From assembly GCF_016612505.1 (NCBI RefSeq), contig NZ_JAENRR010000025.1:1-64000 (forward strand): 64,000 nucleotides of DNA, given 5' to 3'. Shown piece after piece: positions 60,862 to 64,000 of the stretch. The notes below the pieces were generated by a model. That model did no database searches. It was not told where the DNA came from and was given only the letters and a program-made list of their open reading frames with translations. A program made the translations under genes and the position numbers. This DNA comes from Carboxylicivirga marina. GTDB lineage: Bacteria; Bacteroidota; Bacteroidia; Bacteroidales; Marinilabiliaceae. How positions within the stretch are numbered: position 1 is the stretch's first letter; each line of letters opens with the position of its first letter.

Positions 60862-61476
60862 ATGGCACGCTACAATAGCATTAATGAAGGTTCGTCTGGC
60901 AAAGTTGGTAATGTGGTAACTTACAAAATGTATGGGAAAAGTTATATGCGTTCTATGCCCGGGCAATACACAGATAAGAAGTCGGAGAAACAATTGGCAC
61001 AACGTCAGAAAATGCAGTTGGTCAATGACTTTCTTGGGGCTTTTACAAATGTGCTCCGTATAACGTTTCAGAAAGAGGCAGTGGGGCGTTCGGCCTATGC
61101 AGCCGCCAAATCCTATAACCTCTTGCATGCCATTGGGGGTGAATACCCGGAACAGTACATTGATTTTACAAAGGCTTTGGTAAGTATTGGTTCCGTAATA
61201 TTGCCTTCAAACTTGAGTGTGAAACGAATAAATAATGGATTACTATTTAATTGGGAAAATGATGAGTTTGGGAATTTATCAGATACACTCTTTGTTACCG
61301 TCAAAGGGCGTTCAAAGCAATATGTCGAGTATAAACAAACAGAGGCACAACGAAAGGATGAGTCATATACCTGGAAGATGGATTTTACAGAAAATGAACA
61401 ATACGATGTGTGGCTGATATTTCGGGATTACAAAGAACGAGGTTTTAGTAAGAGTGTGTGGTTGGGATTGGTTTAA
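60862..61476 (+). CDS. DUF6266-family protein
   Basis: 204 residues. It begins MARYNSINEGSSGKVGNVVTY then YMRSMPGQYTDKKSEKQLAQR, the pattern of DUF6266: a Gly-rich start, a conserved arginine, and a beta-sandwich-like second half (LSVKRINNGLLFNWEN, DTLFVTVKGRSKQY). The function of the family is unknown. It is no obvious sugar enzyme. Repeats flank it on both sides, so it may have come in as a separate unit within the locus. Confidence 0.75.
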   Translation: MARYNSINEGSSGKVGNVVTYKMYGKSYMRSMPGQYTDKKSEKQLAQRQKMQLVNDFLGAFTNVLRITFQKEAVGRSAYAAAKSYNLLHAIGGEYPEQYIDFTKALVSIGSVILPSNLSVKRINNGLLFNWENDEFGNLSDTLFVTVKGRSKQYVEYKQTEAQRKDESYTWKMDFTENEQYDVWLIFRDYKERGFSKSVWLGLV

Positions 61477-61512
61477 TTGAGAGGAGAGAGGAGAGAAGAG
61501 AGAGGAGAGAGG

Positions 61513-61739
61513 TGAGTGTTTCACGCCAGTCGCAAAGAAAAATAGTCGCAAAGGCTGCAAAGAAATTTGTAAATGGAGTATTGAACTTTAGGTTCTTAGG
61601 GTATTATTTTTGCCCTTGGCGAGAACCTTGCGTTATTTGTATCTTCTTTTTGTTCTCTTTTAACTCAGCGGTAAAATCTTTATAATGTATTATCAAATTC
61701 ATTTTTCCGCAGGGAAAAAATCTGTGATAATCTGTGGAC
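61513..61739 (+). repeat. Repeat unit A with CGCAAAG heptamers, no gene
   Basis: It starts TGAGTGTTTCAC, carries CGCAAAG at 61531-61537 and 61547-61553 and TGCAAAG at 61556-61562. An inverted counterpart CTTGGCGAGAACCTTGCG follows after about 53 bp. The right part has TTTAACTCAGCGGTAAAA and a tail ending TAATCTGTGGAC. Unit B repeats the same landmarks in the same order. Confidence 0.7.
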
Positions 61740-61771
61740 AGGAGAAGAGGAGAGAATTGAGTTGTGATTGA

Positions 61772-62015
61772 TGAGTGTTTCACACAAAGCCGCAAAGTTT
61801 TTATACCATATATAGGTAGCAGGTTCAAAGGTAGCCAAGAAAAATGAAGTCATTCCCCCATCGCCCTATGGGCACTTCCCCCTGGATGAGGAAGAATGAT
61901 TAGCAGCTATGTTTTCACTGCGTTCTCATTTAACTCTGCGGTAAAACTCTTTTTAATGCAAAATCCAATTTTCTATAGGAAAATAATCCGTGCTAATCTG
62001 CGCCAATCTGTGGAC
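61772..62015 (+). repeat. Repeat unit B, diverged copy of unit A
   Basis: It starts with the identical TGAGTGTTTCAC, has CGCAAAG at 61791-61797, then GTTCTCATTTAACTCTGCGG, TAAAACTCTTTTTAATG and a tail with TAATCTGCGCCAATCTGTGG ending GGAC. Matching landmarks in A and B show common descent. Spacing differs by about 17 bp. Confidence 0.7.
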
Positions 62016-62283
62016 GCAAATAGAGATGAGTGGTGAGAAGAGAGAAATGAGTGATAACCAGAACTGCTCCCTGAGACATCGAAAAGAAACAAGAGCCGAT
62101 GTGATGAGTGTTATGATTTTTCGACCTTAGTGAAAGCCTTCACGTTTTAGCAAGAAAAGATTCCCTTGGATATTCCTTAAGATAAGCCGATATTTGTATC
62201 CCAAAATTTAAATAAGTAAAGTATTACAATACAAGGCTTGCGATCAATATTTTAGTTGCCAGCCTTTACCTAATGAACATTTT

Positions 62284-63399
62284 ATGTCAAAAGTTGCACT
62301 CATCACCGGTATCACCGGACAAGACGGCGCTTACCTAGCCGAATTTTTATTAAAAAAAGGATACATCGTACATGGTATCAAGCGTCGTTCTTCCTTATTT
62401 AATACCGATCGTATTGATCATTTATATCAGGATCCGCATGTGGAAAATCGAAATCTGATACTGCACTACGGTGATTTAACGGACTCTATGAACCTGACAC
62501 GTATTATTCAGGAGGTACAACCGGATGAGATTTACAATCTGGCGGCCATGAGTCACGTAAAGGTGAGTTTTGATACACCAGAATATACGGCCAATGCCGA
62601 TGGTTTGGGAACCTTACGTATTTTGGAAGCCATTCGTTTGTTAGGCTTAAGCGAGAAAACAAGAGTTTACCAGGCATCAACATCTGAATTGTATGGTTTG
62701 GTGCAGGAAGTGCCACAGAAGGAAACAACGCCTTTCTACCCACGATCACCATATGCGGTTGCCAAGATGTATGCCTACTGGATTACAGTGAATTACCGTG
62801 AAGCATACAATATGTACGCCTGTAATGGTATTTTGTTTAACCACGAGAGTCCCTTGCGTGGTGAGACTTTTGTGACCCGTAAGATTACGCGTGCTGTATC
62901 TAAAATTGCTTTGGGTATGCAGGACTGCCTGTATCTTGGTAATATGGATGCCAAGCGTGACTGGGGACATGCCAAAGATTATATCAAAGCCATGTGGTTG
63001 ATTCTTCAACAAGATCAAGCTGAGGATTATGTGATTGCAACAGGCGTAACCACTACTGTTCGTGATTTTGTGAAGATGTCTTTTGCGGAAGTGGGTATCG
63101 AATTAGAGTTTAAAGGCGAAGGAGAACAGGAAGTTGCTATTATTAAGGCCTGTTCGAATCCGGAGTTTCAGGTGGCTATTGGTACGGAAGTCGTGAAAGT
63201 AGATCCTGCTTATTACCGCCCAACAGAGGTTGAGTTGTTAATTGGTGATCCTACCAAGTCAAAAGAGAAACTGGGCTGGGAGCCTGAGTATGACTTAGCC
63301 GGTTTGGTGAAGGATATGATGGCGTCGGATGTTAACTTGATACAAAAAGATAAGTACTTGAGAGACGGTGGTTATGAAACATTAAACTACTTTGAGTAG
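62284..63399 (+). CDS. gmd: GDP-mannose 4,6-dehydratase
   Basis: 371 residues. An NADP-dependent short-chain dehydrogenase of the extended type that makes GDP-4-keto-6-deoxymannose, first step to GDP-L-fucose. The cofactor loop is [28 protein letters not shown] and the catalytic YxxxK ([12 protein letters not shown]) follow, then [20 protein letters not shown]. The partner gene fcl comes next, but a GxxExxY module sits in between. Confidence 0.97.
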
Positions 63400-63403
63400 A
63401 AAG

Positions 63404-63450
63404 TTTCTCGCAAAGACGCAAAGGTTTAAATAACGCAAAGGTCGCTAAGA
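63404..63450 (+). repeat. Left heptamer array of the GxxExxY module
   Basis: TTTCTCGCAAAGACGCAAAG starts the array, which holds CGCAAAG at 63409-63415, 63417-63423 and 63434-63440 and CGCTAAG at 63443-63449. Confidence 0.85.
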
Positions 63451-63469
63451 AATCAATTAAAGCTTTTCC

Positions 63470-63847
63470 ATGACAGAAAATGAGATTGCTCAAATAGTTG
63501 TTGATACAGCATTTCATCTTCATAAAGCGATTGGTCCCGGGTTACTAGAATCGGCATATGAACATGCTCTTAAGTATGACTTGGAGGAAAGAGGATTGAA
63601 TGTGCAAAGTCAGGTGGCTATGCCTTTTGAATATAAAGGTGTTAAATTGGATGTTGGTTATCGAATTGACTTATTGGTGGAAGATAAGTTGGTTGTGGAG
63701 ATAAAATCAGTCGAACAATTGGCTCCTGTGCATTTTGCTCAAACTTTAACCTACTTGCGTCTGTCTGATATTAAACTCGGATTACTTATTAATTTCAATT
63801 CAAAATTATTAAAGGACGGTATGCATCGTCTTGTTAACGGATTATAA
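63470..63847 (+). CDS. GxxExxY protein (PDDEXK-fold)
   Basis: 125 residues. The name-giving motif is G24-L-L-E27-S-A-Y30 in GPGLLESAYEHAL. A PDDEXK-like nuclease core follows with D67 (YRIDLLVEDK) and E77-x-K79 (VVEIKSVE). The family is frequent in Bacteroidota and others, its function is not established, and I recall it as often found with such repeats near polysaccharide genes. Here the flanking inverted heptamer arrays suggest that the protein acts on the repeat DNA, a view based on fold and position only. Confidence 0.9.
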   Translation: MTENEIAQIVVDTAFHLHKAIGPGLLESAYEHALKYDLEERGLNVQSQVAMPFEYKGVKLDVGYRIDLLVEDKLVVEIKSVEQLAPVHFAQTLTYLRLSDIKLGLLINFNSKLLKDGMHRLVNGL

Positions 63848-63848
63848 T

Positions 63849-63891
63849 CTTCGCGTTCTTTGCGCATAACTTTGCGCTCTTCGCGAGAAAC
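63849..63891 (-). repeat. Right heptamer array of the GxxExxY module (inverted)
   Basis: CTTCGCG at 63849-63855 and 63879-63885 and CTTTGCG at 63858-63864 and 63870-63876 are the reverse complements of CGCRAAG, facing the left array. The first one starts two bases after the GxxExxY stop codon. Confidence 0.85.
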
Positions 63892-63899
63892 AAAAGGTT

Positions 63900-64000
63900 A
63901 TGAATAAAGAAGCTAAGGTGTATGTAGCAGGGCATAAGGGATTAGTCGGATCTGCCCTATGGAAGACACTACAAAATAAAGGCTATAAAAACCTACTTGG
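63900..64000 (+). CDS. fcl: GDP-L-fucose synthase, N-terminal part
   Basis: Only the first 33 codons lie in the window. MNKEAKVYVAGHKGLVGSAL is the NADP Rossmann loop (GxxGxxG) of the GDP-fucose synthase/WcaG type, which epimerises and reduces the Gmd product to GDP-L-fucose. The position after gmd supports this. The protein continues beyond the right edge. Confidence 0.85.
   Translation, partial: MNKEAKVYVAGHKGLVGSALWKTLQNKGYKNLL

Follow-up and report, generated by a model that had tools for sequence, protein, structure and literature searches.

Several known systems resemble the locus described here in one respect or another. In REP/RAYT systems, or REPtrons, inverted repeat units border a gene of the nuclease type, gene-less units are scattered in the genome, and unit abundance goes with the presence of the gene, as set out in the available part of PMC8266576. 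Their TnpA-REP protein is an HuH enzyme and the REPs are palindromes of 20–40 bp with a GTAG tag, according to the available parts of PMC8266576 and PMC3733652. The intervening sequences of 23S rRNA are insertions of ~400–500 nt with complementary borders and one small ORF; in the parts of the sources at hand, S23p is the ORF of such sequences, which are excised by RNase III (PMC4990558; PMC11270868 for the ORF), it also occurs in cas loci (PMC3936711), and it is a relative of Avd (PMC10053308). The seg and mob homing genes of T4 place a nuclease of the GIY-YIG or HNH type in an intergenic gap (PMC2988022, in extract). Heptanucleotide repeats, such as the STRR, the TAACTGA units of Beggiatoaceae and the GGGAATC units of Xanthomonas, are 7-bp tandem units that lie mostly between genes; in extracts of two papers, inverted pairs are reported for Xanthomonas (PMC4692102) and horizontal spread is suspected with no evident mechanism (PMC4679880). 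In the same extracts, the repeats are not linked to GxxExxY or S23 genes, the terms "23S", "intervening" and "four helix" are absent from both papers, and "GxxExxY" is absent from PMC4679880. MITEs and IS elements, finally, have terminal inverted repeats and gene-less copies.

The locus analysed here is a cassette between gmd and fcl in the first 64,000 nucleotides of a Carboxylicivirga marina contig (NZ_JAENRR010000025.1), the whole of which stretch we call the window. It recalls a REPtron in its layout, but its protein is of the PD-(D/E)XK type, its heptamers are mirrored across the gene and several GxxExxY cassettes are possible in one genome. With the 23S rRNA intervening sequences it has in common its size, its complementary borders (the stem being predicted here) and a single small ORF; the S23p family, however, is shared by the S23 cassettes of its relatives (TIGR02436) and not by the window cassette, whose gene encodes an unrelated nuclease, and the cassettes sit at operon junctions rather than in rRNA helices and are bordered by heptamer arrays. 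Like the T4 genes, the nuclease gene occupies an intergenic gap of which cassette-free alleles exist, although the fold is a different one, and the T4 free-standing homing genes are not known to have mirrored repeat arms or gene-less arrays. Unlike known heptanucleotide repeats, the arrays are here the arms of gene cassettes. Compared with MITEs and IS elements, the cassette ORF matches no transposase family, the end sequence is not fixed and no target-site duplication is definable, the cassette-free sites being TAATG overlaps or short spacers of diverged species. Open-access full text names GxxExxY in passing, in the portions available, and includes no paper with the heptamer strings searched for; among the matches listed from the open-access literature, with subscription journals mostly outside it, heptamer arrays are not linked to GxxExxY or S23. 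Comparison with relatives suggests that the cassette exemplifies a widespread kind of insertion between operon genes, apparently undescribed as far as this literature goes.

Anatomy of the cassette between gmd and fcl

The gmd stop codon (TAG, 63397–63399) is followed by AAA and then directly by the left terminal repeat, and 8 bases separate the right terminal repeat from the ATG of an ORF that we take to be fcl, a name carried over from an earlier reading of the sequence; the whole gap is thereby taken up by the cassette (Table 1). Direct reading bears out the perfect 9-bp terminal inverted repeat of the original prediction and its single cargo gene, the GxxExxY ORF being the sole ORF inside the arms. 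The predicted spacing is exact on the gmd side (three bases) and slightly off on the fcl side, where about 9 bp had been given, and the mirrored CGCWAAG arrays stand as four units facing four inverted units, except that two of the units on the right read CGCGAAG. In an RNA fold of the cassette the arms pair as a stem enclosing the gene (z −2.86; 0/100 shuffles equally stable). No Rfam match was found at E ≤ 1 across 61400–64000, and a known structured RNA was rejected on that basis.

Table 1 Features of the gmd–fcl region. Positions are those of the window unless a contig is named.
Feature	Position	Strand	Details and basis
Gene-less array upstream of gmd	61531..61562	+	CGCAAAG, CGCAAAG, TGCAAAG; probably a solo or decayed arm
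Short gene-less array	61783..61797	+	CACAAAG, CGCAAAG
gmd, GDP-mannose 4,6-dehydratase; upstream host gene	62284..63399	+	Pfam GDP_Man_Dehyd, 3.7e-154
Left 9-bp terminal inverted repeat	63403..63411	+	GTTTCTCGC; exact reverse complement of 63883–63891
Left arm	63403..63449	+	CGCAAAG ×3 (63409, 63417, 63434) and CGCTAAG ×1 (63443), unit starts 8, 17 and 9 bp apart; direct reading; paired with right arm in RNA fold
GxxExxY gene, 125 aa, predicted PD-(D/E)XK nuclease	63470..63847	+	TIGR04256, PF13366, AlphaFold2, Foldseek
Right arm	63849..63891	-	CGCGAAG (63849), CGCAAAG (63858), CGCAAAG (63870), CGCGAAG (63879); direct reading
Right 9-bp terminal inverted repeat	63883..63891	-	GCGAGAAAC; exact reverse complement of 63403–63411
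fcl start	63900..64000	+	369 aa; extends to contig position 65009, past the window end
Gene-less mirrored array pair after fcl, just past the window	contig C124:65020-65229 (L011:5021-5230)		

The pattern CGCWAAG-N(0-6)-CGCWAAG has 8 matches in the 5.65-Mb genome and 0 for the reversed control pattern, and the arrays are therefore not due to chance. Four of the 8 lie on the window's contig, at 63409–65229, one of them in the gene-less mirrored pair just past fcl, and the remainder are three overlapping gene-less matches at C119:27664-27698 (L012:5665-5699) and one gene-less match at C11:122903. Copies of the array, for which a genome search had been proposed, thus exist elsewhere in the genome, though exact ones are few. 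The array pair past the window lies between fcl and the next gene, a 376-aa ORF that we take to resemble mannose-1-phosphate guanylyltransferase, and successive junctions of the gmd–fcl operon thus bear arrays. The C119 region and L013:4869-4942 (C11) present a solo array and a compact hairpin of the window's unit, both gene-less.

The GxxExxY protein

The window ORF matches TIGR04256 with 142.2 bits (cut-off 35) and PF13366 (PDDEXK_3) with 135.2 bits (cut-off 22), in agreement with the PDDEXK-like gene originally proposed, and profile searches gave only PDDEXK_3 and GxxExxY matches, with no transposase family, no HuH Y1 transposase and no S23p. The protein carries E27, D67, E77, K79 and Q91. 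Residues E27, D67, E77, K79, N108 and F109 are invariant in 49/49 family members, while Q91 is present in 45/49 and Y95 in 47/49; G24, E27, Y30, D67, E77 and K79, all present in the window protein, are invariant across 44 aligned members. The alignments A1, A2 and A3 contain minus-strand rows that lack a start codon, which leaves the window protein unaffected. An AlphaFold2 model of the protein was confident (pLDDT 96.4, pTM 0.90), and its best PDB matches in Foldseek were SSO0001, LHK-Exo and lambda exonuclease (probability 0.99–1.0), with E-values of 1.1e-3 to 4e-3, none of them ≤0.001. SSO0001 is, we presume, a Cas4 protein. A sequence search for solved relatives of GxxExxY returned nothing credible, with one match at E 0.54. 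GxxExxY is predicted to be a Cas4/lambda-exonuclease-like nuclease.

The GxxExxY genes of G000 and G005 showed a dN/dS of 0.043 at a saturated dS of 2.27. Strong purifying selection on the ORF, as this comparison suggests, needs an explanation beyond a decaying parasite, and purifying selection at one site over a saturated dS would fit a host-maintained gene too. Three cassette proteins matched 0 PADLOC families, and a known defence gene was rejected for this reason. GxxExxY matches occurred in 0/50,697 phage records and in 8/72,556 plasmid records; an origin mainly as cargo of phages or plasmids was rejected on these counts, which are unlike those of many active mobile elements and to that extent speak against a mobile nature.

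Cassettes, arms and arrays in other genomes

The gmd–fcl junction was compared in 12 genomes of the genus (G000–G011), with G020 and G021 of the 14 left out. Four of the 12 (G001, G002, G003 and G006) are cassette-free, their stop and start codons overlapping as TAATG; they form a single clade in the gmd tree and therefore count as one event. The window's cassette type is present in two genomes (G000 and G005), and another GxxExxY cassette with CGAATT-type arms in two more (G007 and G011), the gene of G011 being broken by an in-frame stop at codon 43. The remaining four (G004, G008, G009 and G010) carry an S23/IVP cassette, which encodes a 124-aa four-helix protein between purine-rich arms (e.g. 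GGAGAG, GTGAGAA). In every occupied gap (8 genus genomes) an arm starts within a few bases of the gmd stop, and short gaps of 83, 12, 3 and 115 bp are found in four other genomes of the order (G013, G016, G017 and G018, respectively). The sisters G009 and G011 (support 0.989 in the gmd tree, 0.995 in the fcl tree and 1.0 with four concatenated his genes), whose gmd genes are 86.5% identical, differ in their cassette, S23 in the one and GxxExxY in the other, and related species thus hold different cassettes at gmd–fcl. Comparison with the cassette-free junctions shows the cassette to lie between a stop codon and the next start codon, a position at which insertion damages neither gene. An empty site of the kind sought in relatives therefore exists in 4/12 genomes; together with cassettes of whole-unit similarity at different sites of another genome (G029, below), it upholds the view of the cassette as an inserted module. 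Arrays occur elsewhere and the states of the junction differ, and a fixed ancestral spacer or chance repeats were rejected in view of the cassette-free sites and of the mirrored arms in 52/70 listed matches vs 2/245 controls.

Those arms were counted in 80 GxxExxY loci that are the best listed matches to 11 sequences near the window protein and not a random sample; some may share genomes with the 80-genome set of the order, and many come from metagenome bins. Among the matches listed are loci of Bacteroidota, Ignavibacteria and relatives, Cloacimonadota, KSB1, Planctomycetota, SAR324, Chloroflexi, Acidobacteria and relatives, Desulfuromonadales and Cyanobacteria and one of Methanothrix. A frame of at least 110 aa from the chosen start was present in 72/80; flanks of 200 bp on either side were available for 70 of these, and 69 contained no N. 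The unit counted, CRCNRAK, had been picked by eye from other loci before the count. Among the 70 usable listed loci, 54 had at least two units on both sides, 52 had them mirrored and 68 had an array on at least one side, the only exceptions being L218 and L224; the corresponding numbers for 245 control windows from the same contigs were 4, 2 and 45. The gene thus goes with heptamers as a rule, and neither of the two outcomes named with the original prediction as refuting it came about. CGCWAAG itself, taken at first to be the repeat, holds for the window and is one variant only, other GxxExxY cassettes using loose CRCNRAK-type units. Own arms aligned better than shuffles (p < 0.02) in 47/69 listed loci and better than >95% of swapped arms in just 29/69, given that the arms of different GxxExxY loci are alike.

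For the order and genus, 79 of 83 distinct targets were used (46 GxxExxY, 33 S23), together with 29 control ORFs, and flank alignment against shuffles served as the inverted-arm statistic. Plain counts of shared 7-mers were rejected for this purpose because AT-rich flanks give many chance matches, at least three shared 7-mers being found in 54% of swapped GxxExxY pairs, 31% of swapped S23 pairs and 47% of control ORFs. Inverted flank similarity reached p < 0.01 in 29/46 GxxExxY loci, 18/33 S23 loci and 0/29 control ORFs (2/29 at p < 0.05). Counting against the arms are the 17/46 GxxExxY and 15/33 S23 loci that fell short of this level, and also the direct flank similarity (p < 0.01) of 19/46 GxxExxY loci, which was seen in 5/33 S23 loci and 2/29 controls. 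Within G029, the cassettes L135 and L136 are 91% similar over 478 bp between unrelated sequence on both flanks, and L131 and L132 are 88% similar over 432 bp with one visible flank unrelated, L131 ending with its contig; among the sequence comparisons, such similar cassettes at different sites point to movement most directly. Two near-identical GxxExxY loci of G092 were rejected as a transposition pair because their similarity continues through the flanks, and judging from this they are one region, duplicated or assembled twice. TIGR04256 matches were present in 40/80 genomes of the order (38 above the cut-off) and TIGR02436 matches in 55/80. In several genomes, GxxExxY and S23 genes were also observed only a few kb apart on one contig (G089:C25, G059:C33, G067:C21 and G037:C130).

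The S23 cassettes of relatives encode a protein of the TIGR02436 family, a relative of 2GSC with a match to the PHROG Avd family, and they have the layout of the GxxExxY cassette, one gene between mirrored arms, with a heptamer of its own at each locus. Their flanks have a sharp 7-bp period (4-mer self-match of 11.7 at lag 7 and 10.5 at lag 14, against 0.7–3.6 at other lags from 4 to 18), whereas GxxExxY flanks peak at lags 8–10 (2.7–4.2, against 0.9–1.9 at other lags and 0.8–1.9 in controls). The arms of an S23 cassette match each other better than those of other cassettes, with scores of 29.9 vs 16.0 in G000 (8 loci, permutation p 0.0002; own best in 5/8) and 40.7 vs 16.2 in G068 (10 loci, p 0.0002; own best in 9/10); the test covered all 8 frames of G000 and all 10 frames in 11 regions of G068, one of which is frameless. 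Some S23 arms (e.g. L108 and L117) use GGGGATT- or GAATTAC-like units, which resemble cyanobacterial heptanucleotide STRR repeats.

In the his operon of 14 genus genomes, with putative gene names judged from the protein sequences, S23 frames of at least 85 aa occupy three junctions in 10, 7 and 9 genomes, and 26/26 read in the operon sense. Cassette-free alleles, including spacers of 2–40 bp, and decayed remnants are present as well. At hisF–hisI the unit varies between species and the left and right arms change together (p 0.0002); co-change is weaker at the other two junctions (p 0.03 and 0.06), and species relatedness inflates all of these tests. The simplest reading of the aligned arms would be that complementarity is kept and sequence is not. 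Four S23 pairs gave dN/dS values of 0.014–0.082, and at his junctions most of the cassettes seem to have been inherited vertically, others having been lost or reduced to decayed remnants. At one junction (L303:2836-3489, G000 C122), before a gene that we take to be hisH, the downstream ORF as predicted takes in the right heptamer arm at its start, and this array may be translated as an N-terminal extension.

Neighbouring genes lie on the same strand in 44/63 loci and in 129/179 other gaps (named loci, both neighbours within 600 bp), and insertion gaps are no more common between co-directional neighbours than other gaps are. Where the neighbours share a strand, the cassette has their sense in 40/44 loci. 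Among the loci of the order and genus, 30/40 GxxExxY and 24/32 S23 cassettes have the orientation of both their neighbours, and 1 of each has that of neither. The median distance between the outermost heptamer and the upstream stop codon is 12 bp (n = 29; no more than 15 bp in 19).

Arrays also occur on their own. A GxxExxY or S23 frame was found within 500 bp at 3 of 32 array loci (28 from other listed arrays and 4 of the 8 matches in the window's genome), leaving 29/32 without a gene. Across 80 genomes, the array pattern gave 810 matches and the control pattern 47; the median was 4 matches in the 40 genomes with a GxxExxY match (E ≤ 0.001) vs 0 in the 40 without (p 5.5e-4), and at least 5 CGCWAAG array matches were present in 20/40 vs 3/40, respectively. 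The control pattern differs between the two groups too (p 0.006), and genome size or composition therefore contributes. Three genomes have 8–81 array matches yet no GxxExxY match. G027, with 143 pattern matches, had one GxxExxY gene among 20 regions, in the region picked for that gene; long direct CGCAAAG arrays, some with a larger periodic spacing, were seen in this genome (C91:30600-31043, C149:2531-3087, L351, L352 and L354), as if array amplification ran apart from the gene. In these samples the gene is nearly always accompanied by arrays while arrays are mostly without the gene, an asymmetry that looks like that of RAYT and REP.

Candidate explanations and their meaning

In our judgement the balance is even as to whether this single-gene intercistronic cassette is a minimal mobile element or the descendant of one, mobility being what we infer from the comparisons above. 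Two mirrored arms of short repeats surround one gene in the sense of the host operon, and the gene would presumably be translated from the operon's own mRNA. The arms would count less for any fixed sequence than as an inverted repeat that folds into a hairpin, whether as single-stranded DNA or as RNA, a role that comparison supports for the S23 cassettes and that may extend to the GxxExxY cassette. GxxExxY would cut the folded arms or the empty junction, host repair would then copy the cassette into a new junction, and gene-less arrays might be mobilised in trans, much as RAYT is believed to move REPs. A tight stem may also help the mRNA to tolerate the insertion, as in the 23S rRNA intervening sequences. 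Because S23 cassettes share this layout but encode no nuclease, GxxExxY activity is not the general motor; either each protein would act on such a hairpin through a chemistry of its own, or a common function would be performed by the arms at the RNA level. A nuclease tied to a fixed heptamer is likewise not the general explanation, given that the unrelated S23/IVP gene uses its own heptamer at each locus. We tentatively propose, with a little less than even confidence, that GxxExxY and S23 genes are both carried by a single large and undescribed class of bacterial mobile element, a mirrored-arm intercistronic cassette that would invade stop/start junctions and be defined by its structure and not by its sequence, the heptamer of each S23 cassette being rewritten in both arms by slippage and arm-to-arm copying.

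The arms might instead act mainly in RNA, as an intervening sequence of mRNA: the operon-transcribed stem would be cut by RNase III, freeing the small gene, whose protein would be a passenger or RNA-processing partner, and spread would occur by rare illegitimate events. We consider this unlikely, though a serious candidate. It accords with the fold in which the arms close a stem round the gene, with the operon sense of the cassettes, with S23 arms that stay mutually similar while their sequence changes and with an arm–arm duplex energy that averages −51.1 for own arms vs −37.3 for swapped arms, own arms beating all 20 shuffles in 48/70 loci and all 20 swapped arms in 24/70. S23p, moreover, is the known ORF of some RNase III-excised 23S rRNA intervening sequences (PMC4990558, available part). 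A cut polycistronic mRNA, however, would have no ribosome scaffold to hold its pieces, and a structure in single-stranded DNA or a cruciform would give the same-looking inverted arms; the Foldseek resemblance of GxxExxY to DNA exonucleases and the lack of an Rfam match in the range searched also weigh against it.

That the gene is maintained by the host for repair, regulation or defence, with the hairpins as slippage-born spacers or expression insulators and the species differences as ordinary gain and loss with the operon, seems to us improbable. Such a gene would explain the low dN/dS values of both families, the absence from phage records and rarity in plasmid records, and the largely vertical keeping of S23 at his junctions with its losses and remnants, but it sits poorly with mirrored arms that belong to the unit across phyla, with copies of the whole unit at different sites, with three unrelated cassettes at one junction and with the lack of a PADLOC match. 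Least probable by far, in our estimation, is a free-standing homing endonuclease that would cut the cassette-free gmd–fcl of incoming or sister DNA and be copied in by repair, in the manner of T4 mobE between nrdA and nrdB: cassettes are found at many different junctions, and homing leaves mirrored arms, gene-less arrays and S23 cassettes unexplained, even if the intercistronic site with its cassette-free alleles in relatives (4/12), the PD-(D/E)XK fold and the sister species with different cassettes all speak for it.

If the proposed mirrored-arm mobile cassette is real, two common orphan families and recurrent short bacterial repeats would be parts of one element that colonises operon junctions, among them those of the histidine and GDP-fucose synthesis operons. 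As one mobile kind, it would account for many unexplained bacterial heptanucleotide repeats, and the 23S rRNA intervening sequences would be its rRNA-resident branch; the element would be mobile without a recognised transposase and without fixed ends. Should the arms work at the RNA level, intervening sequences would be extended from rRNA to mRNA. Either reading gives the GxxExxY and S23 proteins testable roles.
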